From positions 6,768,793-6,832,792 of the forward strand of contig NC_049991.1 in NCBI RefSeq assembly GCF_000003815.2: a stretch of 64,000 nucleotides of DNA, read 5' to 3'. The translations under genes and the position numbers were made by a program. Below are positions 111 through 27,700 of this stretch, piece by piece (positions within the stretch are counted from its first letter, which is position 1; each line of letters starts with the position of its first letter). The notes beneath the pieces were generated by a model. The model saw nothing but the letters and a program-made list of their open reading frames with translations. It had not been told where the DNA came from and made no database searches. This DNA is from Branchiostoma floridae (Eukaryota > Chordata > Leptocardii > Amphioxiformes > Branchiostomatidae).

Positions 111-297
111 CGAATCACGTGTCTCTAAGTCACGTGATCAGAGTAACTGAATCGTCACTCCTGAAGAAGGTCGACGGAAGAGCGACTGAAAATTCGAGGT
201 GAGAATAATTTGTGTTGTACTACAGTTGAAAAACTTCAATTATGTATTTTATCAACACAGATGAGCTTTCATGCTAATTTTTTTTGCTGTCTTTTAG

Positions 298-3200: not shown

Positions 3201-4862
3201 GACTTTTGTCTCTCCTACTATCTGCCCATTCATGGGTTATTTCAAAGTCATATACTTTATTTTCTTTGACATTAGAAAACCATACTATTAGATATATATG
3301 TAAGAAACCATAAAGAAGAGGTATTTCATCTCATACAGTCATACAACTGGTATTCCTTTTCATTGAAATTCCAAATTAATTCCTCCAGAGTCCTAGAGAC
3401 ATTTGTAAAGGAGTTTAAGGCAACTACAGTGAATTCCAATTATTTTTGTTATGCCTTTTTGGATAATTCGGGTAATTGACAAAATCAAAACCATTTGCCA
3501 TTCATTCTATTGTTTAAGACATGACAGAATTGGATAACCCACAGTCTCAAACTTTGGGTTTTTGTACTATTAACACAAGAAACGTCTATTTTTCTTTTTT
3601 ATTTGTACTATTAACACAAACATCTATTTTTCTTTTTTATTTTGTACTATTAACACAAGAAACGTCTATTTTTCTTTTTTGTTTGTACTATTAACGCAAA
3701 CGTCTATTTTTCTTTTTTATTTGTACTATTAACACAAGAAACGTCTATTTTTCTTTTTTATTTGTACTATTAACACAAGAAACGTCTATTTTTCTTTTTT
3801 ATTTGTACTATTAACACAAGAAACGTCTATTTTTCTAACGACTTGAATCTAAAATGATGTGCCAATCACATGTACTTTGTTTGTAACCCAATTATATCTC
3901 TATCTCTTGAAGTCTTTGACAGCAGCAGCAGGGTTCTTCTACAGTAAGTACCTCCTGTTGCAGTGGCAGCTGCTCATTCTGGTCGTCTTCGGAGTGGCAG
4001 GGACTTTGGCATTTTTTGAAGTAAGACATTTTGTTTGTATTCCAACAGAACACTTTGTTGATATTGCTATAAGCTCTGTCTGTCAAACAGTTGACTTGAG
4101 AAAAAAAATGTAACTGTATGCTTTGATTTTTTATTGAAATTACTCTATTTCTGTGATTTTTTTTTCTGTTTTTGCATGAACCATAGACTGAAATAAACAT
4201 TGTAGTTGCAGTACATGTTCCTTTTCAGTCAGTCAATGTTACTAGTACTGGCTGGATCATTGAATTTTCTGCCGTACACATCCTGAATTTTCAAATCTTG
4301 GACAAAAGATTCTAAACAACTGACTTATGTCACATGACCTTACAAGAATGTGATGTGTCAGCAATGGGGTCAGAGTGTCCTGGAAGGTTATTATTCCAGA
4401 CAAACACTTTAATTCTGGAAAACCTTAATTATTTCAAAATAGATTAACCAGATGAATTAATATTTGTAGATATGATGTATCAAAGGATAATGAATATGTA
4501 AGCCGCAATTAAATGTCTCCATGAAGAAAGCCAATTCTGGGCTTTCAGAATTCTGGATCCATGAGCAAGAATTCTGGGACCCTGCCAGAATTCTGCAGAC
4601 CTTTCTTCGTGGAGAAATCTTATTGCAACCTACATAATATCCTTTGATATATAGTTATTTTCAGTCTATTTTGATTATTTTGATTATTTTATTTTCAGTC
4701 TATTTTGAAATAATTCAAGTTTTCCGGAATTAGAGTGTTTGTCTGAAATTATACTGCCGCCTGTTAATTCTGAAACTCACTGATACAGAAGCATCTCTTT
4801 AACAACAGGTGGAGTGGAAGACAGCAAGTGCCTCCAGGAAAGGCTATACACAGATAGGGTGA
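298..4862 (+). CDS. MFSD11-like: UNC93-like / MFSD11-like transporter, copy A (3' part, six exons)
   Basis: This is the C-terminal half of a major-facilitator protein of the UNC93/MFSD11 group, multi-pass membrane proteins of unknown substrate. Exons with GT-AG borders are 298-363, 940-1065, 1436-1619, 2279-2414, 3913-4020 and 4809-4862, giving 223 residues to a TGA at 4860-4862. Recognisable stretches are ELTFFSGVYGTCIG, FIGAGEIL, LLGLGDSSFNTQ, EDSAPAFALFKF and the C-terminal KGYTQIG, which follow vertebrate MFSD11 closely. The 5' exons would lie upstream of the window. Exon lengths and phases equal those of copy B at 21.7-31.3 kb (66, 126, 184, 136 and 108 nt), so the two are paralogues in the same orientation. 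No frameshift or stop breaks the visible part. Introns carry a GC-rich repeat fragment, a 41-bp minisatellite and a palindromic MITE. Confidence 0.93.
1150..1388. repeat. GC-rich GGTGGCC-containing repeat fragment in an intron
   Basis: This block of higher GC sits in the second visible intron of copy A. It contains several GGTGGCCGCTA/GTGGCC words and ends in GCTAATACAGGTTTGACTG, which resembles the end of a dispersed DNA-transposon family. Only one end is evident, so it is probably a truncated copy. The ORFs seen here on both strands are incidental. Confidence 0.4.
2020..2196. repeat. Degenerate (TTCA/TCCA)n low-complexity tract
   Basis: A pyrimidine-rich run of degenerate TTCAT/CCATC words in the intron before the 2279-2414 exon of copy A. 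Confidence 0.7.
3555..3836. repeat. 41-bp minisatellite in an intron of copy A
   Basis: About seven tandem units of TTTGTACTATTAACACAAGA followed by AACGTCTATTTTTCTTTTTT, with a 41-bp period (for example unit starts at 3721 and 3762). Two units lack 3-4 bp. It lies 75-360 bp before the 3913 exon. Confidence 0.9.
4385..4760. mobile_element. Palindromic MITE in the last intron of copy A
   Basis: The arms around 4389-4446 and 4700-4757 are imperfect inverted copies about 55 bp long, sharing CAGACAAACACT and AATTATTTCAAAATAGA. The interior is also palindromic (CTCCATGAAGAAAG against CTTTCTTCGTGGAG), so the whole unit can fold back. It has no ORF and the superfamily is not identified. Confidence 0.75.
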
Positions 4863-8412: not shown

Positions 8413-11400
8413 CTAGAACCCTGCGGCGTTCTTCAGGAGGATCACCATGGTGATGGTTGCCATGGTAACGATGCTGACAGGAGTGGTGACTGCAGCTCCG
8501 GTGGCGGGTTGTCCCACACAGCCGTCAGTGTTACAGCAGTAGATGCACACAGACGTGGTCTCGTTGGGCTTGCAAGCTCCGCTCTTATTGGTTATCTTAC
8601 CTGATGATGTAATCCAAAAGGTCGCACTTAATTAGCATAAAAGCACAATCTCAAAAACCGGAATCAGAATAGCCAAAGCAGTATTCAACAAACTACGTTT
8701 TTTGTCGCCGGTAAATCTATGTTCACGGTTTTATGCCATGTGTTTGTCTAATACCTCCAGGAAGAATAGTGATGCATAGTATTCACATCGTACACACTGA
8801 TGGAGATCTTTTAAATAAACTAATTTGGAAATTAGGTCAGAATCTGAATTGTTGTATGTTTATCTTGCACTGATTGTTGAGATTGAAACACAAATGGTCT
8901 GTGTTCTAACATTAGAATAAGGCTATTTACGTATTGTAAGAAGTGAAGAACACATCGTCGCTCCAACTAAAGTAAGGCCACAATAGATTAGGGGGAAAAT
9001 GTCAAATCCATATTAACTTTTTCGTCGTAAAACTTCGATGTGCAGAAAAAAAAAACTTTTACAGAAAAATGCACTTTCCAAGCAGAGGTTGGTGGAAAGA
9101 TTAAAACCTGTCCACACTCAGGAAACGGGAGACACAAGAAAAAGTGTCACAATCTTTCCCAGAAGTAAAAGGAATAGAAACATTCCGCATAATATAGAAG
9201 ATGTGATCATAACTTCCATGTACCTGCGTCACATGCCGACTTTGTACCACACGCGTTGGTCCACTTCTCCCCTCCAAGGACTTCATTCTCTGAAAAGTCA
9301 AGTTGGCTGGATATGAGTAGCATATCTAATAATTCATAATCAGGTACTAGTATATCAGAGATATTCTATATGATATCATGATGTCCAGTTAACATATATC
9401 TATCTATTTAGGTCAAAGTATGTACAACTCTTTGAAAAAACGATCTAGACAATTCAATAGTTTCATGAAGCAGCATACTAGTAGTTACATAATGTTTTAT
9501 ACATAAGGCCACAGCAAGCCAATTTTATGGATGACATCAGCGCGCTCATTAAAAGAAGAAAAAGACGTTTTTTTTTTCTCTTGGGGATAGTCGGATAGAC
9601 CAAATTAGGCAAACATATTGTGTTGTAGCCTAATAATCATACTTGTAGAAGTGACACTAGGGAGGTAGCCATGACTATAGTTGCAGAAGTGAAAGTTGTT
9701 GGATAGTTGTAAAAGTGTCACCAATATGGAAGCCATGGATGTAGTTGGCAGCTTGGCACGTGATACCAGTGTACCATACATACTAGTATTACTTTTACTA
9801 CGCTAGTTCAATTCTTTTAGATTAAAACATGAATGAGTGCCTTGTTAGTTGCTATGCCATGTTTTGTCACTTCAAATCTTGTTACGACGTTTATGGAGTC
9901 AATTTTGAAAATCTATTTTTTTTTTCATTATTTTCCACTCTGCATAGGATGTCATCCATAAAATTTACTTGCCGTGGCCTAACAGATTATCTTTACTGTT
10001 ATTCAAATATTATATTTATTTAGTTCTTTGAGATTTTTTTATAGAGTCCAGAAACATAGTCGATTTATCATAACATATGCTTGACTCCAGTATACCATTG
10101 CCTCTTGTCATTTTTATGTCAGAATGTAATAAATATGTCCAATTCAGACACTGAAAAAAACTTACTGGCCTGGATGGTCCGACAGTAGGTGTCGGTTCCG
10201 TTGCATGTCACCTGGGCGGCTTGTAGACACGCAGCCCTGCTGTCCAACAACGTGCAGCTTGGGCACTTCAAGGCTCCACCTGGTACAGAAAATAGCCAGT
10301 GTTATACTTGGGTCACAATTTGAAAATGGTAGCCTCTTCCCGACTTCCACAGTTGCTAAAAATAGTAGAAATTGGCCGAATAGATGGGGAAAACATCAGA
10401 GGAATGTGCGTCCGGCCAACCAAATCCTCTGGTGTATTTGCCGTCTATTTGGACAATTTCTACTATTTTTCCAGCGACTTGGCGAGCCTGGTAGAGGCTA
10501 GCAAAAGGGGGCCCTGCCGGGTAGTTCATGGCATGTTTTCTGTTTTTGTTTTACAATGTCGGGCGTGGCCCCTAGACACGATAGACACGATAGACACGAT
10601 AGACACGATAGACACGATGACTTTCCCATGAAAACACCGAGAGGTATCCGGCAGTCTACCGGGACAAATTTGTGACTTCAGAGCCGCCGGCCAGGCCGGC
10701 AACACAAGTGACGGGCATCGGTGCAATTGTGACCGAAGCATTGCACAATCCCTCATTGTCAAGCTAGGGTTGATTGGATCTCCTCTCAAATATCACCCAA
10801 GCAGATCTAGATCTAGAGGTTACGATAGGGGGATAGTAGTGTTCAGGTATATATAGGGGAAATGTTCCCCGCTGATATAGTCCGCTGATAGCCTGGGTAC
10901 CATCTGGAAAGTAGTCACTATATACAGTCGTTACTCTCTCTTACCAAGGAGGTTCAACCTCCTTGCTCTGACATCTAGTAAACATTATATACAGTCTCTT
11001 TTCTACTGGGTAGCTGAAGCGAACATAAAATAAGAGCGAGCTACGGCCGGATGGTATCCAGGTGAGTCCACTGATACATCTGACTGGGAAGCGCTCTCAC
11101 CCACGCGCGGATTTCTACATGTAAAGAAGCGGCGATTTCAAAACTCTGTATCTGTATCTGTATCTATATAGCCGGCATAGCCGCCCTTCGGCGTAACACA
11201 CTAGTACTGGACAGCTTCGCAGGTACAGTGCGCGGCAGCAGCTGGTTCTGTATGATCAATGAACGAATACACCCATTTACTATCAACCGGCCTTAGGGGC
11301 ATTCTAAAAAGGGGGAGGCAAAAGTTCATTTTTTTCTTATATTGAGATCTAAGAAGAAAACGAATTACGAAGTCAACAATGTGTCGTTTATGACTTACAA

Positions 11401-12408
11401 AGTAAACATATGGTTTACGTTTCAAGTAAAGGTAACTAGTAATTACGCCTCAAATGGTGTTACACCCGTAGGCACTTTCAACTCAGCTTCAGTCAGTTAC
11501 CTCATGTAAATGACGGTTTCCATTGTTCACGCAACTGGAGTCCTCTTTCCAAGAAGGAGTCAAGAAGGTTGGCCCAGATTACACACGTTTTCATGTCGGC
11601 CCGATTCACACACGTTTTTTGAGTCGGTACAATTTGAACACGTTTTTAAGTCGGTACGATTTAAACGCGTTTTCGAGTCGGTACGATTTAAGCACATGCT
11701 TTGAGTAGGCCCGATGTATAGACGTGTTTGAGTCGGTACGAATAATACAAATGTTTTGGAGTCGGTACGATGTACACACATGTTTTTGAGTCAGCCCGAT
11801 TTACACACAATCATGCTTAATTCAGTCCGAGCCCGATTTACGCACATGGTTTTGAATCGGTACGATTTAAGTCGGCCCGATTTACACACATATGATTTTG
11901 AGTCGAATGCTTGCGGATAAAAGGGATGTAGCGTAAATTTACTTTAAATCCTACGATAACATTTCGTCTACTCCTGTTGTGTAGATTTGGATATATCACA
12001 TCATTTTTATCGTAGCACAGCTTTTAACGTACGTTTTGAATTCAAGCTGCATCAACGACCAACCATAGAGACCACGCTTTATTCTTGAGAGAGCTTCGTG
12101 TCCTTTCTTTGAAACTATGGAAACTCATAGCATTGGAGTCACTTGAAATTTGTTCGAATTTTGATTTGTGGATTTCTTGGTGCTTCAGCAATAAATTCTA
12201 CTTTTTTGGAACCTTTAAAAACTGCGACCAATTCTCTTAAGCCCGGAGGTCAGAGCATAGCATTAAAATTTGTAACACATGTGTATCTACGGAGGGGAAC
12301 ATAACTGTTGAAAAGTTCTACAATATTTGAAAGACAAAAGGTCAACTCACATGTTATGATAAAGCAGTTAAGAGCCAAGAAGACAACAAAACCGCGACCC
12401 TTCATCAT
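8413..12408 (-). CDS. Ly6/uPAR (LU) domain, GPI-anchored surface protein
   Basis: Three minus-strand exons, 12408-12351, 10279-10166 and 8600-8413, join in phase into 119 codons plus a TAG at 8415-8413. Residues 1-20 form a signal peptide (MMKGRGFVVFLALNC...). Residues 25-85 carry ten cysteines in LU order: C25, C28, C37, C45, C52, C67, C76, C79, C80 and C85, ending CCNTDGC. Sequons occur at N46, N62 and N70. A hydrophobic tail after about residue 100 suggests a GPI anchor. The signal exon plus two half-domain exons is the usual Ly6 gene layout. The fold is that of LU receptors and adhesion proteins, and the ligand is unknown. The tandem ATG at 12406 and 12403 was chosen because a hydrophobic core follows at once; an in-frame ATG at 12468 would add a basic leader. 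The usual CN after the last cysteine reads CV. A near-identical exon 1 lies at 18921-18978. Confidence 0.9.
10327..10502. repeat. Fold-back element in the LU gene intron
   Basis: Imperfect inverted arms, about 60-70 bp each, share AAAAATAGTAGAAATTG and its complement, plus flanking GGTAGCCTCT / AGAGGCTAGC. It lies just upstream of the second LU exon, in the first intron. Confidence 0.65.
10573..10617. repeat. 9-bp microsatellite-like tandem repeat
   Basis: Five perfect units of TAGACACGA in an LU gene intron. Confidence 0.9.
10886..11060. repeat. Inverted-repeat element with internal CAAGGAGGTT hairpin
   Basis: AGCCTGGGTACCATC near 10887 and GGATGGTATCCAGGTG near 11048 are inverted ends of a short element. 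Inside, 10945-10954 and 10956-10965 form a perfect 10-bp stem (CAAGGAGGTT, one-base loop, AACCTCCTTG). Related hairpins occur at 15973-15993 and 48586-48608. Confidence 0.5.
11580..11905. repeat. 27-bp minisatellite (first version)
   Basis: Degenerate tandem units of the form TTTTGAGTCGGTACGATTTA plus about 7 bp. The same array is at 13850-14180 with more regular units (unit starts 13924 and 13951 give 27 bp). Because 27 is a multiple of three it is open in several frames, and I do not regard those frames as genes. Confidence 0.85.
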
Positions 12409-12999
12409 CTTTGACTTTCTTCTTGCAGCAGGTGCAGGTGCGTGTTGTCTATCTGGGCCACACCGCAAAACACTTTATGACTGACCTTTGACCTAGACGC
12501 ATATCCAGACTGGGAGCGGCATAAAGTAATATATCTTACGTTTTTCGAGATTTTTGTTTCTTCCGGTTCACTTATACTACTACTACCACTTTTCAGTATG
12601 GAGTTGCTCCTATAGTTAGACTTTTTCTGCAATTCGGAAATTGAATGTCCAACATTGCAATCTGTTAAAAAGTAATGTTAGACTGGCTTTTGGCAAGACT
12701 TTGTTAAGGAAAGATAAATATTATTCAGAGACGCTCTCGTCCATAAAGCAGAAACCTGTTCTTCTGGAATGTCGAGTTGGGACGTGCTTTCCCCTAATAA
12801 AATCCATCATTCACTGTTAGCTTGAAGCTATCTTCTTAGTCACTGTTAAACTAAAGTCCATCCCAGATTAGATCAGTAGGTTGGCTCAAATAATGAACGA
12901 ATTCATAATCATCATTACATAGTTTAGATGACTACGTTGTCATTCCAAAGACACTTAACGGCTTAACGTCCCTGCAACCCTTTCCGGTAGTGTGCATGT

Positions 13000-13075
13000 T
13001 GCGTGAGTGATCATGACATAGCTGGAATCGAACTCACGATTCGGAACATGGCCGCTAGCACGTTACTTACGGAAA
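13000..13075 (-). repeat. tRNA-like SINE fragment
   Basis: Read on the minus strand this has GAGTTCGATTCC, close to a pol III B box, with a GTGCTAGCGG word 25-35 bp upstream in A-box position. It is present in the first version of the duplicated locus and absent from the second, as expected of a polymorphic insertion. Confidence 0.35.
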
Positions 13076-13548
13076 CGTTAGCACAAGCCAATGAACTTTA
13101 GAGAAAGACAAGGTTTAGGCCATTTTCTGATTAGCTGAGAGCTGATTATTTGCCAAGGAAATGTCGGGCCATTTCGACAGTGCGTGGTTTTACACGGACT
13201 ACGTTCGACTTAGGTCCCATTTCCGTAACGGGGCTCGGACGAGATGTTTGCGGCAGCGAAGAATGTTTACCAAGGAATATACATAAATTATGCTATCGAC
13301 TATGTTTTTTTTACGTTATATGTGTTTTGTTTCCTTTATTATGATATTCTTTTGTTTCCGCAAGCTACCGGCCGGGCCCTGGGTTGGGAAACATGACCTA
13401 GGCCTAAAGCTAAGGGCACAACCCGCCGTACGTGCAAATACGTGCTAAGTGCCAAAACGTGGGCAATCTTTTTGGATCCGTATGTGGTAAGTACCGCCTC
13501 CGTACGAACTCATAGGGAATCCGACGAATTTTGGAGCACACAGACGCG

Positions 13549-13648
13549 NNNNNNNNNNNNNNNNNNNNNNNNNNNNNNNNNNNNNNNNNNNNNNNNNNNN
13601 NNNNNNNNNNNNNNNNNNNNNNNNNNNNNNNNNNNNNNNNNNNNNNNN
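13549..13648. other. Assembly gap of exactly 100 N
   Basis: One hundred consecutive N, the conventional placeholder for a gap of unknown size. The sequence to its left ends inside a MITE whose continuation is found at about 19965. The sequence to its right starts at a point matching about 11377. Confidence 0.99.
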
Positions 13649-13849
13649 TCACAATGTGTCGTTATGACTTATAAAGAAACATATGGCTTACATTTTAAGC
13701 AAAGGTAACTAGTAATTACGCCTCAAATGGTGTTACACCCGTAGGCACTTTCAACTCAGCTTCAGTCAGTTACCTCATGTAAATGACGGTTTCCATTGTT
13801 CACGCAACTGGAGTCCTCTTTCCAAGAAGGAGTCAAGAAGGTTGGCCCA

Positions 13850-14180
13850 GATCACACACGTTTTCATGTCGGCCCGATTCACACACGTTTTTTTGAGTCG
13901 GTACAATTTGAACACGTTTTTAAGTCGGTACGATTTAAACATGTTTTCGAGTCGGTACGATTTAAACGCGTTTTCGAGTCGGTACGATTTAAACTCGTTT
14001 CCGAGTCGGTACGATTTAAACGCGTTCTCGAGTCGGTACGATTTACACACGTTTTTGAATGGGTACGATTTACACACAATTTTTAGTTGTTACGATTTAA
14101 ACACATGTTTTTGATTCGGTCCAATTTACAGAGTCTGACGTTTTTGAGTCGGCCCGATTTACAAACATGTTTTTGAATCT
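13850..14180. repeat. 27-bp minisatellite (second version)
   Basis: About eleven units of GTCGGTACGATTTAAACGCG plus 7 bp. The frames open through it on both strands show 9-residue periodic peptides and have no start or splice context of interest. Confidence 0.9.
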
Positions 14181-15417
14181 AATGTTTGCGGATAAAAGGG
14201 ATGTAGCCGTTAACTTACTTTGAATCCGAGGATAACATTTCGTCCACTCCTGGTGTCTAGATCTGCATATCACATCATTTCCTCCTAGCAAAGCTTTTAA
14301 CTTACGTTTTGAATTCAAGCTGCATCAACGACCAACCATAAAGAGTGACTTTAAATGATATTGAGTTAGGGGCTTTCACTGTGCGAAAGGGTGTCATTTC
14401 CGGACGTTTCTATGTTTGTATACATCCGGATCGGGACCGTTTCCGGATATATCCGGACAATATCCGGACGAAATCTGACATGACTCCCCTGCGTTTTCGG
14501 ATAATTTCAGGAGTCCGGAACGGGACCATTTAATTCCTGCCTCATATCCGGATTTCCAGTAATGGAACGTTTTCGGACTCTTTGGAGACAAAACACGTTC
14601 TGAATACTTCGTATATATCCGGATAATTTCAGGAGTCCGGAACGGGACCAAATAATTACGTCTCATATCCGGATTTCCAGTAATGGAACGTTTTCAGACT
14701 CTTTGGATACAAATCACGTTCCGGATATTTCGTATAAATCCGGATAATTTCAGGAGTCAAGAATGGGACCATATAATCATGTCGCATATCCGGATTCCAA
14801 GCAATGGAACGTTCTAGGACTCTTTGGAGACTAAACACGTTCCGAATATTTAATATTTTCTGAGCGCGTTCGGGGCTATTATGCCCCGGAAAGGTTGCAT
14901 AAACTTAAGATATACTGAAACATCATAGGAACAATACAGCACATTATTTCAGAATATCCAGTAACTTTACGATCATGCTAAATACCTAATATTTAACGTT
15001 TCCTGTCCGTTTTAACCCCGGAAATGCTAACTCGGTAAGGCTACATTTTGTGAAAGCTTTTCAAAGACTTTCCTGTATAAATCAGATGACACAAGTATCA
15101 CAACAAATACATTATGTGGAGGAACAGATCATGTTAACGTCAAAGGGCAAATCAATATGCATTTGTCTCTTAGTCTTACCAAGGACGTTTTAGCTCACTA
15201 CAACACCATTGGTCTTCACAAAAAGTGAAGCTCGAACGAAGCCAAAGTTAAACAGTTCACTGTCAGATCCAATAATATCAAGCCCAAGTCAATAACATCA
15301 TAACAAAACTGATCAGTTTAAATGCACAATATCAAATGTACAGTATCCGACACAAGTCTAACGTTATATACATACTATCAATATTCGTAGGATAAAAATG
15401 TCATTACGATATCAGTA

Positions 15418-15656
15418 CTACAGTCCATTTTCAAGTCCTCTATAACTGTATAAGTCCGTATCGTTGACTGTGGAATCATCGTCCGGGGCGCCCTCTTCTG
15501 CGTCTTTGTGGTAGTGGACGATCATTGGCGACGGAAGATGCTCTGGCAAGACCCCGCAATATCGACGGCACGTCTCGAGGACAGTCCGCTCCATTGCATA
15601 GTCCAGGCACTGTCCGTCTTCAGAGTAGAAACAGTTCTTGCGGGATACAACGGCAC
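15418..15656 (-). CDS. Possible 3' exon with cysteine-rich and acidic segment (inside the CACTA-type element)
   Basis: The frame runs from a good acceptor (TGTGCCAG at 15664-15657) to a TAG at 15420-15418. It encodes about 79 residues with a NCFYSEDGQCLDYAMERT segment, CRRYC, then an acidic tail ending SYRGLENGL. An in-frame stop lies just upstream of the acceptor, so this is only coding if spliced. The acceptor phase fits the donor at 16560 (ACT G | GT GCC), which would join it to the repeat-protein frame upstream. The family is not recognised. The two neighbouring frames also show cysteine-containing peptides, so the correct frame is not certain. It could be a captured host fragment or a decayed exon. 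Confidence 0.35.
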
Positions 15657-15965
15657 CTGGCACAGACTGTCGTAAGTGTTACCAGGAGGTAGGCCTCGGT
15701 CGTGGGTATGGCAGGACAGGCGATTGGGAAACAGAGGCTCAGCGGCTGGAATGAAAAAAAACGGCCAGTAACTGCCCCGAACCAATGAACGGTACATGTG
15801 AAATTATTCAAACAACACGGCCATAAAAATCACAGCAGGACAAGACGGGGACAAAGGCAGGAATCTGGAGTCGGCTATCATCAAAGGGTGCCGGCCACAC
15901 AGATGGCACAGATAAGGACCCCCAAACAACGAATGGAATTTGAATAAGCACACAAATATCACATT

Positions 15966-15998
15966 GGTCCTAGCAAGGAGATTCTCCTCCTTGGTTCT
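15966..15998. repeat. Small CAAGGAG hairpin inside the CACTA-type element
   Basis: CAAGGAG at 15973 and CTCCTTG ending about 15992 form a short stem. It is related to the hairpins at 10945-10965 and 48586-48608. Confidence 0.5.
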
Positions 15999-16446
15999 AT
16001 TAAAGATTTAGCCAGCCAAAACAACAAGACAGGAAAGTTTAGAAGCAACCGTTACGGCACTTACAGCACAAAATAATATGAGAATTTAACTAACTATGGA
16101 ACGGGCAATTTGTAAACAAGCCGGGGATGACACACGGGGGTTCCAACTGAAAGAGAAGTGATCTATCATACAACAATCTTTACAAAAAGATCACACTACT
16201 AATTATTAAATACACAAAACACTAGGAAGGGATAACAGACATTGCTGACAGACATATACGGAACTAAGAACGGTAACTGCTATGTATATACAATCTATGT
16301 ACTAGAGAGCTACACTACTCACTTCTTGGTCCGGTAGCGGCTAGCGGCGGACGGCAACTGATCTAGTTTCAAACCTAACTGCTGTCACCAGCTGGTCTAC
16401 TATTGGTCTAGTCAAGTCATGTGACGTCCTAATATAGCCTTGTTAC

Positions 16447-17481
16447 CTAAGGACTCCTCCAGATGGTTCCAAGCAAGTTAGTGCCATCCATCATGCCTGT
16501 TTCACAGAAACACATGGCATTGTGCATTATTTTTGTGAATAAATGCATCATGTACTTACCAGTTTCAAAGTTGTACACAGCAGCAAACGCTGTGGCGCGG
16601 TGTAGGCTGTTATCTGCAACGACTGCCCCAGTAGGCGCACCGTTGACATGCCAACGTACTGGTCTGCTCGGCACTTTGCACAGCTTGCATAACCGCTTTA
16701 CGAGTGAAGTTGCCTCGTGATATTGTCCGGATATGGACCATTCCCACACAGCAATGCTGGTATTCAATATCATGAGTGACTTTTTGTCATGATATTGTCC
16801 GGATATGGACCTATCCCAAACTGCACCGCTGGGGTGGAGTGTTTTGACTGAACTTTGGTCAAGATATTGTCCGGATATGGACCTATCCCAAATTGCACCG
16901 CTGGTGTGGAGTGTTTTGACTGAACTTTGTTCAAGATATTGTCCGGATATGGACCTATCCCAAACTGCACCGCTGGGGTGGAGTGTTTTGACTGAACTTT
17001 GGTCAAGATATTGTCCGGATATGGACCTATCCCAAACTGCACCGCTGGGGTGGAGTGTTTTGACTGAACTTTGTTCATGATATTGTCCGGATATGGACCT
17101 ATCCCAAACTGCACCGCTGGGGTGGAGTGTTTTGACTGAACTTTGTTCATGATATTGTCCGGATATGGACCTATCCCAAACTGCACCGCTGGGGTGGAGT
17201 GTTTTGACTGAACTTTGTTCATGATATTGTCCGGATATGGACCTATCCCAAACTGCACCGCTGGTGTGGAGTGTTTTGACTGAACTTTGTTCATGATATT
17301 GTCCGGATATGGACCTATCCCAAACTGCACCGCTGGGGTGGAGTGTTTTGAGTGAATGTTGTTCTTGATATTGTCCGGATATGCAAAGAAACAATAATAC
17401 TTGACTCATAATTGTTACCATCGCAAATATTGTTTTCTGTGTCATTTGATTGTAAATGTCGATGTCAATATATTTGCACAT
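16447..17481 (-). CDS. 344-codon frame: signal-like N-terminus, nine 24-aa repeats, cysteine-containing C-terminus
   Basis: The frame starts with ATG at 17481 (a second Met at residue 13) and has a hydrophobic stretch at about residues 18-36 (IFAMVTIMSQVLLFLCISG), like a signal peptide. Nine 24-residue repeats follow, of the type SGQYHEQSSVKTLHPSGAVW + DRSI, then a non-repeat part with RLCKLCKVP, RWHVNGAPTGAVVADN and AFAAVYNFETG. A canonical donor (GAAACTG|GTAAGT) at 16560/16559 lies at the end of that part. Splicing could go to 15656, or to a nearby acceptor before GCATGATGGATGG that keeps the same frame to the stop at 16447. It lies wholly inside the CACTA-type element. The repeat unit is 72 bp and is open in two other frames, so openness alone is weak evidence. 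No family recognised. Confidence 0.4.
   Translation of the reverse strand: MCKYIDIDIYNQMTQKTIFAMVTIMSQVLLFLCISGQYQEQHSLKTLHPSGAVWDRSISGQYHEQSSVKTLHTSGAVWDRSISGQYHEQSSVKTLHPSGAVWDRSISGQYHEQSSVKTLHPSGAVWDRSISGQYHEQSSVKTLHPSGAVWDRSISGQYLDQSSVKTLHPSGAVWDRSISGQYLEQSSVKTLHTSGAIWDRSISGQYLDQSSVKTLHPSGAVWDRSISGQYHDKKSLMILNTSIAVWEWSISGQYHEATSLVKRLCKLCKVPSRPVRWHVNGAPTGAVVADNSLHRATAFAAVYNFETGKYMMHLFTKIMHNAMCFCETGMMDGTNLLGTIWRSP
16725..17390. repeat. 72-bp minisatellite in the CACTA-type element
   Basis: About nine units, each beginning ATATTGTCCGGATATGGACC and containing GGAGTGTTTTGACTGAAC. Successive CATGATATT starts at 17076 and 17148 give a 72-bp period. Outer units are more diverged. The TCCGGATAT core matches the subterminal motif of the host element, so the array probably grew from it. 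Confidence 0.93.
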
Positions 17482-18603
17482 GTATATGGAAGCTTAAGCT
17501 TCAATTACCAGAAAATTAAAGAGTAAACATACATTGACATCGGGCATACTCGTTGTAGAATAAAAACACATCTACAGAAGCAAAAACGTTAATGACGTGT
17601 ATTTCACAAGACAGGAAACCTTTTTTAGGACACCCAACATAACAATCTCGGATTCATGTATGGCAAGAAAAGTAATTTGTTAACCATAAAGTTGTCCGAA
17701 AACTCACCTCTGGAATGTTTCTGTTTTGGACATCTGTCGTAAATGGAACGTAATATGAATTCGGAAGGAGCGAAAATTTCGGCAAAAAATTGCAGTCTTA
17801 TTTGTTCAGATGCGCAATAAAACAATTACCGATTCACAATTCACGTATATAATACCTTTATCGGTAACGGCCAGAATATGCTAACTCCGAATCTGTCCTA
17901 AAACTAATCCATGGAATATCTGTCGCGGATATGTCTCGTAAATGGAAAGAAAAGAAAATAGTATGAATTCGAAAACATGAAACGTCCCTGACACGTATTC
18001 GGAAGAACGGGAAATTCTATCCGTCCGGGCATGTGCTGAAACATTTCATGATTCATGATATTCTGAGACATAATGAATTGAAAGTATCAAATATCATCTG
18101 ACAATGGCCCAGAAATAATGCACATCATGCTTCGTGCAAACTCCTAATTTGTCCGGGTATTCCTTATCGAAATATATGGACCTTGGATATGTAAAGAATG
18201 TAGAACATATCACGTATTCGGAGGCAAGAAACGTCAATGGCGCGTTTCATGAAAAACAGGAAAGTCTTATTTGTCCGGATACATAACAAGACAATTCCTG
18301 ACTCATGATATTTCCAGATATGGGAAATATTGAACATCGTGCCCGGACACAGTCCGAATATTTAGCATGTCCAAAAATATGTCAACTCCGACTTTGTCCG
18401 GAAATCACACCCTTTCGCACAGTGTTTCCGTCCTTCGAATACTAATCCAAAGCTATAAAGACATATGTTAACTGAAAATCGCACTCAGCGTTCTGACGAC
18501 GCATTTTTTTTTGTTTTATGTGTATGTGCGTAGAAAAAAGTAAAATGTTTAAAGAATGACTGAAAAAGCCATAAGCTGGATAGACAGACATAGGACAATT
18601 CTA

Positions 18604-18657
18604 CTAAATGCACTAGATACCCCCCCCCCCCCCCCTACACACACACACACACACACA
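18604..18657. repeat. Poly-C run followed by (CA)n
   Basis: About 15 C followed by a short (AC)n microsatellite, just before the duplicated AGAGCTTCGTG sequence. Confidence 0.9.
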
Positions 18658-18920
18658 AAGAGCTTCGTGTCCTTTCTTTGAAACTATGTAAACTCATAGC
18701 ATTGGAGTCACTTGAAATTTGTTCGAATTTTTATTTGTGAATTTCTTGGTGTTTCCGTAAAAAATTCTAATTTTTTGGAACCTTTAAAAACTGCGACCAA
18801 TTCTCTTAAGCCCGAAGGTCAGGGCATAGCATTAAAATTTGTAACACATGTGTATCTACGGAGGGAGAAGTTAACTGTTAAAAAGTTCTACAATATTTGA
18901 AAGACAAAAGGTCAACTCAC

Positions 18921-18978
18921 ATGTTATGATAAAGCAGTTAAGAGCCAAGAAGACAACAAAACCGCGACCCTTCATCAT
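18921..18978 (-). other. Second copy of LU gene exon 1 (signal peptide)
   Basis: The coding bases match 12351-12408, including the tandem ATG, the donor (ACAT|GTGAG) and the phase. No second pair of LU-domain exons exists in the window. Either the gene has two interchangeable first coding exons, or, as I favour, this is the other allele of the same exon placed in tandem across the assembly gap. Confidence 0.8.
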
Positions 18979-19825
18979 CTTTGACTTTCTTCTTGCAGCA
19001 GGTGCAGGTGCGTGTTGTCTCTCTGGGCCACACAACAAAACACTTTATGACTGACCCTTTGACCCGTGGATGTATGTCCAGAATGGGAACGGCACAAAGT
19101 AAGATATCTTACGTTTCTCAAGATGATTTTTTTCTTTTGCTGTCCACTTCTCAGTATAGAGTTGCACCTACAGTGGTTGGACTTAAGACATATTAGGAAA
19201 TTGAATGTTCAGCGTTAAAATCTGTTAGTAATACAAAAATAATGTTAGACTGACTGAATTCGAGACTTTGCTAAGAGAAGATAACCATTATTCAGAGATG
19301 TCCCCGTCCAAAAAGCAAAAACTCGTTTTTCTTGAATGTTGAGTCGGGACGTGTTTTCCGCTATTAAAATCCATCATTCACTGTTAGCTTGAAGCTATCA
19401 TTCACTGTTATACTGAGGCCTATCTCAGATTAGATCAGTAAGTTGACTCGAATAATGAACGAATTCATAATGATCATTACATAATTTAGATGACTACATT
19501 GTCATTCCAAAGACAGCTGTTACACAGAAGTCATATAACTGCAGCTAAAAGAAGACACTTCGACATTTCTCCATTCTTGATTGAAAAGGACGTAAGGAAA
19601 TGTTGCATAGACTGCAAAATTGCAATATTTAACCCAAGAGTTCCTGGCAAAAGGTATTAAATGTAGCATTCTACGTACTGGATTTAGGCGCGGTATGGAC
19701 AGAAACCCGGTTTGCCTGAATGCTATTATGTCTTTTACGTTCTGTGTGTTTTGTTTCCTTTATTATAATATTTTCGTTTCCACAAGCCACCACCCGGGCC
19801 CTCGGTCGGGAATTATGACCTAGGC

Positions 19826-20118
19826 CTAAAGCTAAGGGCACAACCGTATATGCTGTCTAAGTGCCAAAACGTGGGCAATTTTTGAGGATCCGTACGTAAG
19901 TGGTAAGTACCGCCTCTGTACGAACTCATAGGGAATCCGACAGATTTTGGAGCACACAGACACGCCGTAGAACTTTACGTGCAGGCAAAACTTTGTGTGC
20001 AATCGGGCTGCGGATTTGCAATGTACAGCCTAGACGTTTTTAGAAATACGTGGCGGACGTGGACTCCCCAAAAACGTACATACAAATTGCACGTACGACA
20101 GGTTGTGCCCTTAGCATA
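19826..20118. mobile_element. MITE with GGGCACAACC ends
   Basis: The left end CTAAAGCTAAGGGCACAACC and the right end GGTTGTGCCCTTAGC are inverted. The interior matches 7957-8297 (CCAAAACGTGGGCAAT, GTGGTAAGTACCG, TACGTGGCGGACGTGG). The 138-codon frame here is a shadow of the repeat. Confidence 0.75.
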
Positions 20119-21679
20119 AACCTGGCGTGACGTATTGAGGATGGCGCTGCGCAAACAATTCAAGGTAGCAGAGTACAGTTTTCGGCCTATGGGGCTTCCT
20201 ATAGTTAAGGACCGCAAGGTGACTGACATTGACGCGGATAGAATTATAGTAGGGTGCATTTGGGAAGCACGACAAACGAGTATGCTGAAGTCGAGGGTAC
20301 AGCGTACAAAATAACCGAAAACCAAAAAACATTTTGACGCCCTCTTTAAAATGGGGTAATGCCGGGTCACCCGGAACTGCAGCCGACTCACTTAGACAGC
20401 CAGCTGTAAAGGTCACGCGTATTTATACAACGACAGGCCAAACTGAAAAATCTCATTCGTGCCATCTGAAAGCCGACATATTGTACTACCACACAGTTAA
20501 GTTCATTCCTCGCTTACATGTATCAACGAACGGTTGAAGCTTTCGAACGCACTATGTTTTACCCATACGTCATTGACTCCGGGGTCGCGTAGAAATACTG
20601 TAATCTGCGGCCTTAAACCAACTTGACCTGTCTTTTCTTTTAATTTGTCTATATCAACAACAATTCAGGAATGTGTGTACCAAATATCGCGGAAATCAAA
20701 TGAACCTCCGCACAGATATTGCCAACTTTGTATTTTGTACTTTTCACTGCGGTCCTGTCCTTGGTGCTACCATGCAGGGTGCATGCTATGTAGTGTGTAC
20801 TTAAAGTCTGTGTATTATAGTGTTTTCAATGGAAAATGAACGTTGTTTTTGCTTTATTGACATCCTTTTATGTTTACATGATAGACTTGACAACGGGGCG
20901 GGTGTATGCATCTAGTGTACTTGCGTTGGGTGTGAATGAACTAGATCTAGGAGTTCAGAAAAACTTTGTCATATCATGGATGAATGAATGGAGTTTCCCG
21001 TCACCTATCCTTTCAAATAGCCATGTATAATTGTTTCGTGTATAACGTTTCAAGGGCTGTGTATTGTAAGACGAAATATATGTCGCGGTGAACTGGGGAA
21101 ACGGAGAACGGAAGTAGTATATGTATATATAACTAGTATGCGTATAATAATAACGTTATATTAATCTTTTCTATGTGTAACCTTTCTTAGTAATCTTCAC
21201 ACGGAAGCTGCAACTGTCCTGGGCATTTTAATATGTCCTGAAAACGTCAAGACGTCAACCAAGTTCAGTTATGTATGGCCATAGTCCATGTCTTAGTGCC
21301 GACACGGTCTCAGACGGTAGCGTCTGGATCAGCAGAAGAGAGGCTGGAGCTGGGGTCTCGGGCGGAGAGGCATTCCCGACATACAGACGACGCATTGATT
21401 GGACAGCACTATTCATTCATTCATTCTTTCTTCCATTCGTTCGCCTTTTGCTTTACTTCAAGTATGGGAAGAATGTCTGGTAAGCGATCTAACAAACGTC
21501 GGCAGTGCCGCCGCCCGCAAAGTTTCAAACTTGGAAACACTGTCGCCAAGAAGGATCTGTCAGCGTGCGAGGAGAGACGCGCTACCAGCGGCGAAGTCAC
21601 AGAAGGGGCACCCGACGAGAGCCGTGCGTACAAATACTGTACTCTGCGGCCTCAAAGCTAGGCTGCACCTCGTGACAAA
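20119..21679. other. Intergenic / upstream region of copy B
   Basis: No recognised domain. Frames of 128, 102 and 70 codons overlap at 21271-21707 in three frames on the plus strand, which argues against any one being a gene. The block may include the promoter and 5' UTR of copy B. A short repeat (ATACTGTA.TCTGCGGCCT) occurs at about 20595 and 21637. Confidence 0.4.
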
Positions 21680-21754
21680 ATGGCAAACCTGGACTTTGGA
21701 CCCGTAGGGCCGGCGTGTCATAGGTCAGTCAGAAAGAAACGCTGTACTTTCAAC

Positions 21755-24700
21755 ATGGCGGACAGGGGTTTGATCAATGTTGTTATTTTAGGTGTATCAT
21801 TTATGTTCATTTTCACCGCTTTCAATACGGCGGGTATGATTGAGGTAAGTCAAAATATATGATAATCTTTTACAATTTCATTGAAAATCAAACTGACAAA
21901 AGTACAGTACGTAGGGTAGAACTTGTACAGGAAAGACTCGTGCATTATAGCAGTGCACTAAACTTTGAACTTGGGCCCCAAAGCAAGAAGAATATGCATA
22001 TAGACTTGAGAAAAGGGTAAGTATTACTGTAATACTTAGCTTCGTAACATTTTTCGATACTGATTTCTAAATTTCTAACCCCCATATTATGAACATAAAA
22101 CATGATTATAGTATTGAGCCTTAGATGAGGGTCTGCATGGGGATAGGGGTTGCACTAGCCTGGTTACCAAACCCCAGCCCGATCTCAAGTATCTATTGCG
22201 CAGGGGTCTGGCCGGATGGCATAGGCCGGCTTCTCAATTTTGCCCCTTATAGTGGGCAAAAACCTCACCAATAGAACAGAAGCAGAATCACCCCTACCAT
22301 GATTGGCTAAAGACCCCCAACTGTATTTTTGAATCCATAACAGTAACCACTAACAGATGAAATGTAGCAGTTACTGTAGATAAGACACCCCATGTCCTTG
22401 CTGGGTTAGAGGCTGTTATATTTACCTCATTGAGATCTCAGTTTATCAAACATAACAAACAGAGGTACAAAGCTTGCAGTTTTGAACAAAGTTCTGTTGT
22501 TATTTTGAAAAATGACTCAACACACCATTGAGCCATATCTAGTCCCTGATTCGCTACTGTGATAGCCTGCTGACCAACTGTGGTATATTGTAACTGGCTA
22601 CCTGTGGTGATAGTTTTGCCATCAATCCTAGGTTCTCCTCCCTCTGATCATTAAGGGCCTTCGAGAACATGTCTACAGCCATCCTGCCAGACCCCAACAC
22701 GAAAGATACTTTTGAGGTTGGGGTATGGTATCCAGGCTAGGGTTGTACCGACAACGCTTTACACTAAAATTTAGAAGAACCCCCTACGTATTCCGCTAAA
22801 AACGTAGGAGGTTCTTCTAAATAGAACAGAAGAACTAAATGGAACAGTGCTATGCATAGCACGGCTGTTACGCCAAGGCTTAACAGCCGTAAATAATATG
22901 GCTTTCCCTACGTATTGCATTAACTTAAAATAGGATTCCTACGTCTTACGAAAAAGGGGCAATTTATTTGCTGCCCCTCTTATATAACAAAATTTTGTCG
23001 ACGTCATTATTCTTGATAAAAAATATTGCACTAGAATCACTGAATCAAACAATGCTCCTATTGAATACTTGACATCTTCCACAGTTTGAAGACGCTATCA
23101 GGGATGTAGACTAGTAGCCTATTAGATATTAGAGTGTGAGAAATTACAATTTCCTTGGATTTTTGTTGGAAGAAAAACTGTTTCTTTACACCTATTTTGT
23201 TAATATTATAAATAAAGATATAAGCTAGTCAGCCTATCTTAACTTTAATTATAAAAAGAGCATCACATTTGTTTTTTGTTGATATTTCCTTTTTTTTAGA
23301 TTAGAAAAGTACAAACACCACTTTCTTTGCAGGAAACCGTCATACAAAGTGTTCAGAAAGAAGGGAAGTTCGATGGAGGCAGTGGCTATATCAGGTAAAT
23401 TCTGATTGTTTGTATCATTTTATTAAATATATCCTTTCATCAACAAATACAAGACACTGATATGAGCACTATCATAGCAAACAAATAAATCACGATATTC
23501 AGGTTAAATTGTAAATTAAAAGGTTTAGTAGTTAATTCAGTCAGTCGTTCAGTATCTACAATGCACGTTTGGCTTGAATTAAAAATTTTACTGTTAGTTT
23601 CATTAGAGGGCCCTCAGTAACAGGTAGATACGGGCAGAGTTAGGTAGACTGTTTAAATCAAGGATGGGATGGCCATGGCATTGGGGCCCAATAGGTGTTT
23701 TTCTAAATTTACAATTGGTAATTGGCAAAAAACGACGGAATCTATATACATGTAACTTATTAAGTATGTTGTACCAGATAAAATGGAAATCTGCAAATCT
23801 CGCTATCTTTTCTCTGTATCTGTATACCAGATATAACAATCTTTTGGCGTCATACTCTTCGTGTTTTTTTCTGTGTACCGGTATAATTGCCATTCAGCGT
23901 AACAGGCCTGCTTCTACTTGACAAGCTGATTAAGTTAAAACATACTATCTATTCTACCTACATGTTATCTATCATACCAATTGCAATGCAGTCTGGCTAT
24001 CATCTACACTGTGTTCGCTGCGGCTAACTGGGGTGCCCCACCAGTGGTGAGTGTATGCGGTCCCCGGAACTCCATGGTCCTAGGAGCATTCCTGTACTGG
24101 TAAGGAAGATTAGCACATTCACATTTAATATGTAATGTATGTATGTATTAAATAACATAATATAATATGATATGATATGATATGATATGATATGATATAA
24201 TATAATATAATAATCATTAATCACAAAAATTAGAGGTACGAGTGTTAGAGACTCAGAATGCTGTTACTTTCGGCTGATTAAGGTTACCTATTCTCCTTTA
24301 TGCAGCCTCTTTATAGCCGTGTTCATCTATCCAATGGTTTGGGCTCTGTACCTGGGATCTGTCTTACTCGGACTGGGCGCTGCAAGTAAGGCTGAAAAAA
24401 ATTGAGTCTCTCCTGGTACAGATTGGAATCGGGTATTTGCTAGAACAATGAGTGACTGGAACACAAAGAATACAGCTTGGGTTAGGGTTAATGGTATTGT
24501 ACAGTAAGTCTAACCCTAATCGAAGCCCATTCTGTACTAACTCGTATATAGAAGATTCGCGAATTTGCTTCTACCCCTGTCAAATTATCCACGATCTTCG
24601 GGCGTATCGATGGAAGGTCGGCCATATTTCAGATCAACAGATGGTTGCTAATTTTTCACATGAAAATCGTCCCCGTCAGATATAATCCATACTTCGTACC

Positions 24701-27700
24701 TTGTACAATTGTTATCCAATAAAGTTATTATATAAGCGAGGCTCAGGCGATTGCCGCATACTGGTCTGATCGATTTTCGCGTAATGTGACAGGGGTATTA
24801 GGAGATTCCGATTCCAATCTTTACCTGGAGAATACAATGCTATCCTGGATTTTTATCTCTATAATGATATACGTAATTTCATAATTGTTACCTATGATTT
24901 ATGACATGCTTTTCAAGTATATACCATACTATATATTCGAACTTTGACTCTTTGATGTAATCTAATCAAGGATTTTTGCAAAATCTCATTTCAAGTGTTT
25001 TTCTAATACTTTCCATGTTAAATATAACCTATATGCAATATGCTGTTTGTTACCTTGTCAATCATAGCAGAAACAGACAATGTTAACGTTGATGGAATTT
25101 ACATCTTTGTAACAGTTCTTTGGACTGGAGAAGGATCGTATTTAACGCTGAACTCGACACCAGAAACCATCGGAAGAAACAGCGGCATATTCTGGGCATT
25201 GCAGGCGAGCAGGTGGCGTTTATTTTCCTGACTGATGTTTGTACATCAGCGATGTCTTGCTGCTCCATATTGTTTTGAATTCTTTTTGCTAAAGACGAGT
25301 AACAAGCGCTTTCTTAAACACGTTATGCTATAGGTCAGCATTTGTTTGTAAACGTAGAAAAGAGTTATTACAATATGTATTCGATCATAACCACAAATGG
25401 GCTCCATGTCAACTCTATGTAGATCAGACATATAGAGTTAACGATCCAACACGTAGCGTGCAGGGTGTTATAAGGCCTACAAAGGTCGGTCCCTATAACT
25501 ACTGAATAAACCACCGAGTACGTGAAGCGAAAGAGGTGGTTTATTAGGAGATTATAGGAACTGACCGTGCCTTGCGACACAGTAGAGACTTGCGGAAAGC
25601 GGATCACTCACATAATTATCATATAGCAATAATCATATATCGAACTGGCCCATGAGAAAATCAAGTTCTGTATAACATATAAATCGTTAATCAAACACAA
25701 TGTAGCATTTGTCAATTCATAGACCGAGTTGGACGTTACAGACCCACTTACAGTATAACATGGGAACAAACCATCAAGACTCAACCATTGAATATCTTGC
25801 AAAACAACTGGTCAATACAGAGGTATAGTGATCGGCGATGCCTTCTTATTTCACAACGTTTTTGGCTATATGATAATGCATATAATTGATGGGTATTGTT
25901 TAATACACGTACACAATGGTTAAATTTGGTCTTTTTCTTCGACCTCCAGTTTGATGTTCGGGAACATTTTCGTCTGGCAGGAGTTCACAGGAAAGGAGAT
26001 CATTGATCGTAAGTTGTACATTTATATGTTAATCTGTAAGATAAAGAACACGGCACGGCATTCAAGTTAGTAACTTATTTTCACAGTGCCACATTACAAG
26101 GGCATACAGAAGAAGTCTGTTTGGTACAATTACATTATTTTTACTTATAAGGAACATGTTTGCAGTTTGATCATGACCTGCTAGGCGGTGCTCTTACACA
26201 TTGTTCTTTTACACCTCTTCCTTCAGCCAAAACCCGTATACAGGTGTACGTGGTACTACTGGTTGTGTGCTGTGTGGGGACACTCATGTTGTTTGCACTG
26301 AGAAACAAGAGCCCAGAAGATCGCGCAGACTCCCCAGATGGCAACAGGTATGGGCAGCGACTTTATAAAGCAATTTTTTTGTTTTGGTCAAAGATGGCGT
26401 AGTCTCAGAAGAAGCACCCGTGTAGGATGTCAGTATACTCTCGTAGTAAATCAACGTAGCCGCAGCGGTTCTACTTTCAATTTAAAGTATATCTGTTACT
26501 CGTGATGAAAGTGGTTATGAACATCTTTTTATAATGTTTTTTGGGACTTTGGGACTATTTTTGATAAGGGTATTTCCATTTCTATTTTCATTTTGTTTAA
26601 AAAACCACGTGTTAAGTTTGGCGATCCGTTACATTAGAGGTCAAACAACCCTGCTAAATTGTAATGTTAGTTATTTTACTGACTGAAACTCAGGTAGGTG
26701 CCTTTTTACAGTCTCTGTTACATGAATCCCATTACATGAGTATGGCATCCTATAACTGCAATGTATTCCTATTCATCATAATAAAATTTTGCTCTTTTAG
26801 GGAAAACAAGTCAAATGAAGGGCCACTGCAAGCATTCAGTAAGTTGAAGTGCAATTCAATTCCTCTCACTGCATTTTGCATTGAAAGGAGATTCTTGAGA
26901 AAACTACGTGTAGTTTTCAAACATGTTGTGTGTTGACACTGTACGTGTGTGCGTAAGTTACAAATATCCTTTCGTAATTTCGTCATCAAACTTCACAAAG
27001 TCTGAGCTCTTCTGAAATCCATTCAGCTATACAGCTACGATGTTTCCAATAAGCCTAAAAGCCCCAAACTGCAAAGACGGGAAAGGTCAAAGGTTCAAGT
27101 GTTGCAATACCTGATTACCCAATAGTTTTACTCAACAACACAAAACAACCGATTGTCGATCATGTTAGGACGCGAGAGATGTTTTTTTAACCGTTCTTTG
27201 TGACTACACTTATAGACTGAATGAAATGTCTTTGGTTTGTATGGTATTGACCGTGTTTATTTGATTGTATTGATAAGATGCTTAGAGAATTACACCTTGT
27301 TTACACGATTACAATAAAGTCAAAATAATTTTTTTTAAATCCGGATAAAAATTGATGAGCGCGCATCTAATATCAAACAAATATGGTATTGTTATCAATA
27401 ACAATCAGATGTGTGTCTACAGAACGATCTATTCAACTTTTCAAGACAAAAGAGATGCTTATGCTGGGGCTGTGTTTTGCATACACTGGTAAGTCTACAT
27501 GACATGTGAACAAATGCATGCTTAGTCACATATTATTTTATAACTATGTCTTTTGGGACTCATCTAGTGACGTTGAGATTACCTAAGAACGACGATGGAA
27601 TAAGGATATTTCATTTAACCTCAACTAGATAAAAATCAGATATTTACTTCCGGACCTTAATATCATTTACATGGATGTCCTACCTTCATAGACGAAAATA

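Follow-up and report, generated by a model that had tools for sequence, protein, structure and literature searches.

Gaps between duplicated pairs are a primary mark of false duplication according to Ko et al. 2022, who also describe false duplications with only part of a gene's exons doubled (PMC9516828). The Branchiostoma floridae assembly derives from two very divergent haplotypes that were assembled apart and then merged by HaploMerger2 (PMC7269912). For lancelet assemblies, possible overestimation of duplicated regions has been raised (PMC12373286). Here, we describe a B. floridae locus, apparently in this assembly, where the first coding exon of an LU-like gene stands on both sides of an assembly gap. 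The analysed window is C13:6768793-6832792. Genome searches were made against the assembly of 513,431,437 bases in 431 contigs. The locus is very likely a heterotype false duplication: two haplotypes of one locus, whose allelism we infer, lie side by side.

The likeness to the cases of Ko et al. is close (PMC9516828). The copies are adjacent, direct and on the same scaffold, with an assembly gap between them, and only part of a gene is included. A heterozygous source and Sanger-era data are also common to both. The species of Ko et al. differ in their heterozygosity, given in a table as 0.22-0.95%, which is far below that of amphioxus. In the titles and opening lines of abstracts, no false duplication of an amphioxus assembly and no such locus was named; this does not prove that the case is unreported.

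The tail of the left contig matches the head of the right contig

We refer to the sequences before and after the gap as the left and right contigs, and to their homologous parts as the left and right versions (Table 1). BLAST comparison of the left contig with the right identified three collinear blocks in direct orientation that link the two. Homology sets in two bases after the right contig begins. Under other scoring, it extends to the very end of the left contig. The geometry is a dovetail: the tail of the left contig matches the head of the right contig. An earlier note on this DNA had placed the end of the left contig opposite about 19965, the start of the right contig opposite about 11377 and the gap exactly between the copies. 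All three statements hold, since 13548 pairs with 19964, 11376 pairs with 13651 and the 100 N occupy 13549-13648. The same note described the whole of 11375-13548 as present twice. The duplication is there, but 1800 of the 2173 left-version bases are aligned (83%), with 1560 contributed by blocks 1 and 2, and both sides contain unmatched stretches. These are 12072-12089 and 12954-13308 in the left version, and 14345-18658 and 19516-19732 in the right. Chance similarity was ruled out by BLAST E-values of 0 for blocks 1 and 2 (718 and 879 columns, respectively). The left contig comprises just 13,548 bases, because a gap of 1403 N (C13:6767390-6768792) ends just before the first base of the window.

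Blocks 1 and 2 were found at just two genomic places (40 scored of 2747 candidates). For the left flank (8800-11375), the other matches were all short or dispersed (40 scored of 4013 candidates). The right flank (19965-22500) otherwise matches dispersed stretches plus one locus on C8 (40 scored of 3226 candidates). This locus, C8:352518-353998, aligns with 20164-21576 in three collinear pieces at 75-79% identity. It is probably a distant relative, at an identity too low for a further copy of this haplotype pair. The duplicated part is confined to the overlapping contig ends, and the flanks have no equally similar second copy among the scored places.

An identical first exon lies within diverged DNA

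The LU-like gene has three exons on the minus strand, and exons 2 and 3 are in the left contig. Its cysteine pattern and hydrophobic C-terminus, assessed by eye only, suggest the assignment. UPAR_LY6 scored below the Pfam cut-off (11.5 versus 24.8 bits) with an approximate, hand-joined protein. Exon 1 is in both versions, where a 140-bp identical run (12311-12450) covers the exon plus its surroundings despite 11.5% divergence around it. Such identity would be expected of two versions that each head a complete gene and is odd for an orphan first exon. The later exons, 2 and 3, had no match in the right contig when the two contigs were compared by BLAST. Exon 2 also had no second match genome-wide in the left-flank search (among the 40 scored of 4013 candidates); exon 3 was not searched genome-wide. 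The earlier note had argued that duplication of only the first LU exon would hardly result from a real gene duplication. This argument is weaker than stated and does not exclude a real duplication, because the gap could hide more sequence. The second first exon probably does not represent a genuine copy of the gene.

A pair of UNC-93-like paralogues in the window served as a control. This pair shares direct orientation, strand and neighbourhood with the LU pair. It differs in being older and in aligning over exons and their edges, with little else (662 of 3729 bases, 18%; exon identity 76-91%). By contrast, the LU pair aligns over 83%, non-coding DNA included. Hence, the LU pair is not of the UNC-93-like pair's age and kind. 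Along the window, one UNC-93-like gene is followed by the LU-like gene, the gap, LU-like exon 1 and the second UNC-93-like gene; this order does not repeat a single unit in tandem. A larger real tandem unit, comprising UNC-93 and LU, was ruled out by this order and by the far stronger divergence of the UNC-93-like pair outside exons.

Two haplotypes of one locus probably explain the overlap

The earlier note had read the locus as two haplotypes joined across the gap, and our results support this. We favour a false duplication because the contigs overlap suffix to prefix, the gap is exactly between the copies and the flanks have no equally similar second copy. The same reading follows from the alignment of non-coding DNA, the identical exon 1 without later exons and a probable assembly history in which haplotypes were assembled apart.

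The events behind the overlap were probably as follows. Within a single, very heterozygous animal, the two homologues of the chromosome would differ by substitutions, a CACTA insertion, a short interspersed element (SINE)-like stretch and small indels. A shotgun assembler would have built both haplotypes as separate contigs. The left contig, which stops at 13548 within a high-copy repeat, would represent one haplotype. The other haplotype would be represented by the right contig, which starts at the equivalent of 11376. The merger step, presumably the software step that failed, would have missed the allelism, leaving the contigs one after the other, separated by a placeholder gap. On the real chromosome, the region would occur once, either as the left form running into 19965 or as the left contig to 11375 followed by the right form.

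If this is true, a phantom first exon and promoter should be removed from the reference chromosome. The locus would also illustrate that gap-separated near-duplicates in very heterozygous animals are best regarded as alleles for as long as reads do not show the contrary. Base-identical exons within diverged non-coding DNA can mimic gene duplication. The biology of the locus itself would be ordinary, as would the assembly artefact.

Table 1. Features of the locus and its surroundings (positions are those of the window).
Feature	Positions	Strand	Remarks
Assembly gap, exactly 100 N	13549-13648	.	Sole gap in the 64-kb window; between both versions
Left version, last 2173 bases of left contig	11376-13548	.	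Overlaps right contig
Right version, first 6316 bases of right contig	13649-19964	.	Homologous to 11376-13548 plus insertions
Homology block 1	11376-12071	+	Partner 13651-14344, 85% identity (BLAST)
Homology block 2	12090-12953	+	Partner 18659-19515, 86% identity (BLAST); holds identical first exon
Homology block 3	13309-13545	+	Partner 19733-19961, 85% identity (BLAST); extended to 13548/19964; cut by contig end
First coding exon, signal-peptide-like, left version	12351-12408	-	Open frame; ends by eye (start codon, splice donor)
First coding exon, right version	18921-18978	-	Identical to 12351-12408
Exon 2, left contig only	10166-10279	-	Open frame; ends by eye
Open frame holding exon 3, left contig only	8413-8631	-	Approximate ends
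152-bp run identical in both versions	11428-11579		Within block 1; right counterpart ends at 13852
CACTA/EnSpm-type transposon, right version only, 4.05 kb	14377-18424	.	Inverted ends, target repeat, inner 72-bp array
Dispersed tRNA-like (SINE-like) stretch, left version only	12958-13041	-	tRNA likeness and strand by eye
Dispersed element A, TAGGTCCC/GGGACCTA ends	13209-13404	.	Left end ~13209-13211; solo copy on C17 shows far end
UNC-93-like gene, first copy	296-4024	+	
UNC-93-like gene, second copy	27421-30674	+	PF05978, E = 4.6e-48

Divergence between the two versions is high and patchy

The versions differ by 200 mismatches in 1746 aligned columns (11.5%). For blocks 1, 2 and 3, taken with slightly wider ends, the values are 11.1, 13.1 and 13.5%, respectively. 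Mismatches are patchy, ranging from 0 to 24 per 100 columns; some stretches have 0-3 and others 22-24. The longest identical runs are the 152-bp run in block 1 and the 140-bp run around exon 1. In 2000 shuffles of the mismatches, the longest identical run was at most 105. The 152-bp run may be a conserved control element within the LU-like gene's first intron. Block 1 also includes a diverged tandem array with units of ~27 bp.

For B. belcheri, single-nucleotide polymorphisms are reported at 4.39%, and small indels total 9.29% of genome length (PMC4284660). Large indels cover 6.51%, with 65-77% of these ascribed to transposons, and local polymorphism follows a geometric distribution (PMC4284660). 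A divergence of 11.5% would fall in the tail of such a distribution. It is from this divergent tail that we would expect regions left unmerged by the merger tool. If alleles, the versions would be unusually old. We consider it a tentative and rather doubtful idea that the two are balanced haplotypes, maintained over a long time in the LU-like gene's control region. It is suggested by 11.5% divergence overall, stretches of 22-24% and one unrelated stretch, all around an unchanged signal exon and 152-bp element.

Real duplication and local rearrangement as alternatives

Several observations, here and at the repeats considered below, weigh against two haplotypes of one locus. Some would suit a real tandem duplication of at least ~2.2 kb that includes the LU-like promoter and first exon, both copies having lost their inner ends in the gap. 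Under this reading, the same gene would have an alternative start in the second first exon. The 11.5% divergence is about three times the reported amphioxus heterozygosity of 3.2-4.2% (PMC12500494) and thus above the mean allelic level, and some 100-column stretches diverge by 22-24%. The UNC-93-like pair provides tandem paralogues in the same window. As that pair is older, it leaves room for a more recent real duplication, in which non-coding DNA would align as well. The fault is not universal in this neighbourhood. Of eight gaps in C13:6700001-6882700 (182.7 kb), four are of exactly 100 N, the gap at 13549-13648 included, and a contig-end overlap was detected at this gap only (1/8 of all gaps, 1/4 of those with exactly 100 N). 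Contig ends of up to 25 kb per side were compared; the outermost contigs are cut by the ends of the stretch and three contigs are shorter than 2.5 kb, which limits the reach of the comparison. Within this reach, the idea that all 100-N gaps here hide overlaps was ruled out by the same count. We also compared the 182.7 kb with itself, taking direct matches of at least 200 bp that are 200-20,000 bases apart. A gap-free cluster at C13:6842404-6864180 has matches of 277-470 bp at 80-90% identity and of up to 969 bp (74%). Hence, real local duplication happens nearby. The gap, whose 100 N need not be its true length, could conceal more sequence. Against all this, a real duplication needs the window's only gap to fall between the copies and swallow both inner boundaries. 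It also leaves an orphan exon without decay, in an assembly apparently derived from haplotypes built apart (PMC7269912). We regard a real duplication, the main rival reading, as unlikely.

The remaining points concern block 3. Some of them would fit a mixed case, with alleles plus rearranged or inserted sequence near 13-13.5 kb in one haplotype. In that case, the left end would lack an exact allelic counterpart at 19964, and the actual arrangement at this point would be something other than a simple overlap. Block 3 lies within dispersed repeats: it consists of the end of element A (to ~13404) and the start of a second element, B (from ~13405). Each matches many places (about 40 matches per search), and the right version has only the 3' half of element A. 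Outside repeats, homology stops at 12953/19515, which is 595 bp before the left contig end. Beyond this point, 12954-13308 and 19516-19732 hold the same position yet are unrelated. The repeat-core copies are not each other's closest relatives. Among 22 matches compared (two being one place, so 21 distinct copies), eight others outrank the right copy in similarity to the left copy, and four outrank the left copy in similarity to the right. The left-right pair shares three rare variants; one of 231 pairs has more and eight others tie. In a five-copy comparison of element A, left-right identity (85/102) was barely above that between the left copy and the C17 copy (77/94). The A/B junction also recurs on C2 and C10, and several further matches pass it by at most 16 bases. 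None of these comparisons sets the left-right pair apart from the other copies.

The mixed case is opposed by the arrangement of these repeats, since in each version the same two directly adjoin one another, with order and orientation unchanged. In a search across the junction (19725-19850; 40 scored of 143 candidates), the left copy was the best non-self match of the right copy, at 142 versus 111 bits. Block 3 as merely a shared dispersed repeat was set aside solely on this 31-bit margin. On balance, comparison of the copies suggests that the same insertion pair is probably present in both versions. A mixed case is a very improbable description of the locus, and two haplotypes placed end to end is the reading we retain. 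The right-hand end of the overlap is weaker than the earlier note stated, because it consists of dispersed repeats and not unique sequence.

Insertions and repeats in and around the overlap

The CACTA-type insertion proposed earlier is evident at 14377-18424. Its ends are 29-bp CACTG inverted repeats (28/29 alike), flanked by a 3-bp target repeat, TTT. Family matches are mostly 89-98% identical (36 scored of 127 candidates). We examined 11 other copies and found both ends in eight, seven of which have 3-bp target repeats. The element thus shares CACTG-type inverted ends, 3-bp target repeats and many copies with CACTA/EnSpm transposons. It differs in that no transposase domain was detected in the two open frames scanned inside it, and it is probably non-autonomous. 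A 348-residue frame over the 72-bp array scored above the cut-off for DUF2694 with no single stretch passing, which we took as a repeat effect. The length of the inner array seemingly differs between copies by multiples of 72 bases; matches end at 2607, 2679, 2751, 2823, 2895, 2967 and 3039. The element also contains an open frame with cysteines (15418-15678, minus strand). This frame has no Pfam match and could be a captured exon.

The SINE-like insertion that the earlier note proposed has some support. The stretch in the left version is dispersed, with 39 of 40 scored matches being other loci at 74-88% identity. Its tRNA likeness was seen by eye only, and Rfam and tRNA (ARAGORN) scans of the window found nothing.

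Two short elements with inverted repeats, having GGTCCC ends in one case and CTAAGGGCACAACC ends in the other, abut in the left version, the right version, C2 and C10. In the window, the abutting elements occupy 13209-13548 and 19733-20115. They probably abut at further places, as if co-spreading or as if one targeted the end of the other.

Self-comparison of the 182.7 kb further identified tandem-type repeats at several places, with spacing of up to ~1 kb, and two weak matching pairs inside the window (67 and 70%). Gaps are spanned by two repeat pairs, at 74% each, one of them across the gap at 13549-13648. Within the gap-free cluster, open reading frames were read for C13:6852701-6862700 only. 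They resemble a single coding exon repeated in arrays, carry a W..W-type cysteine-rich motif and may belong to a mucin-like gene.

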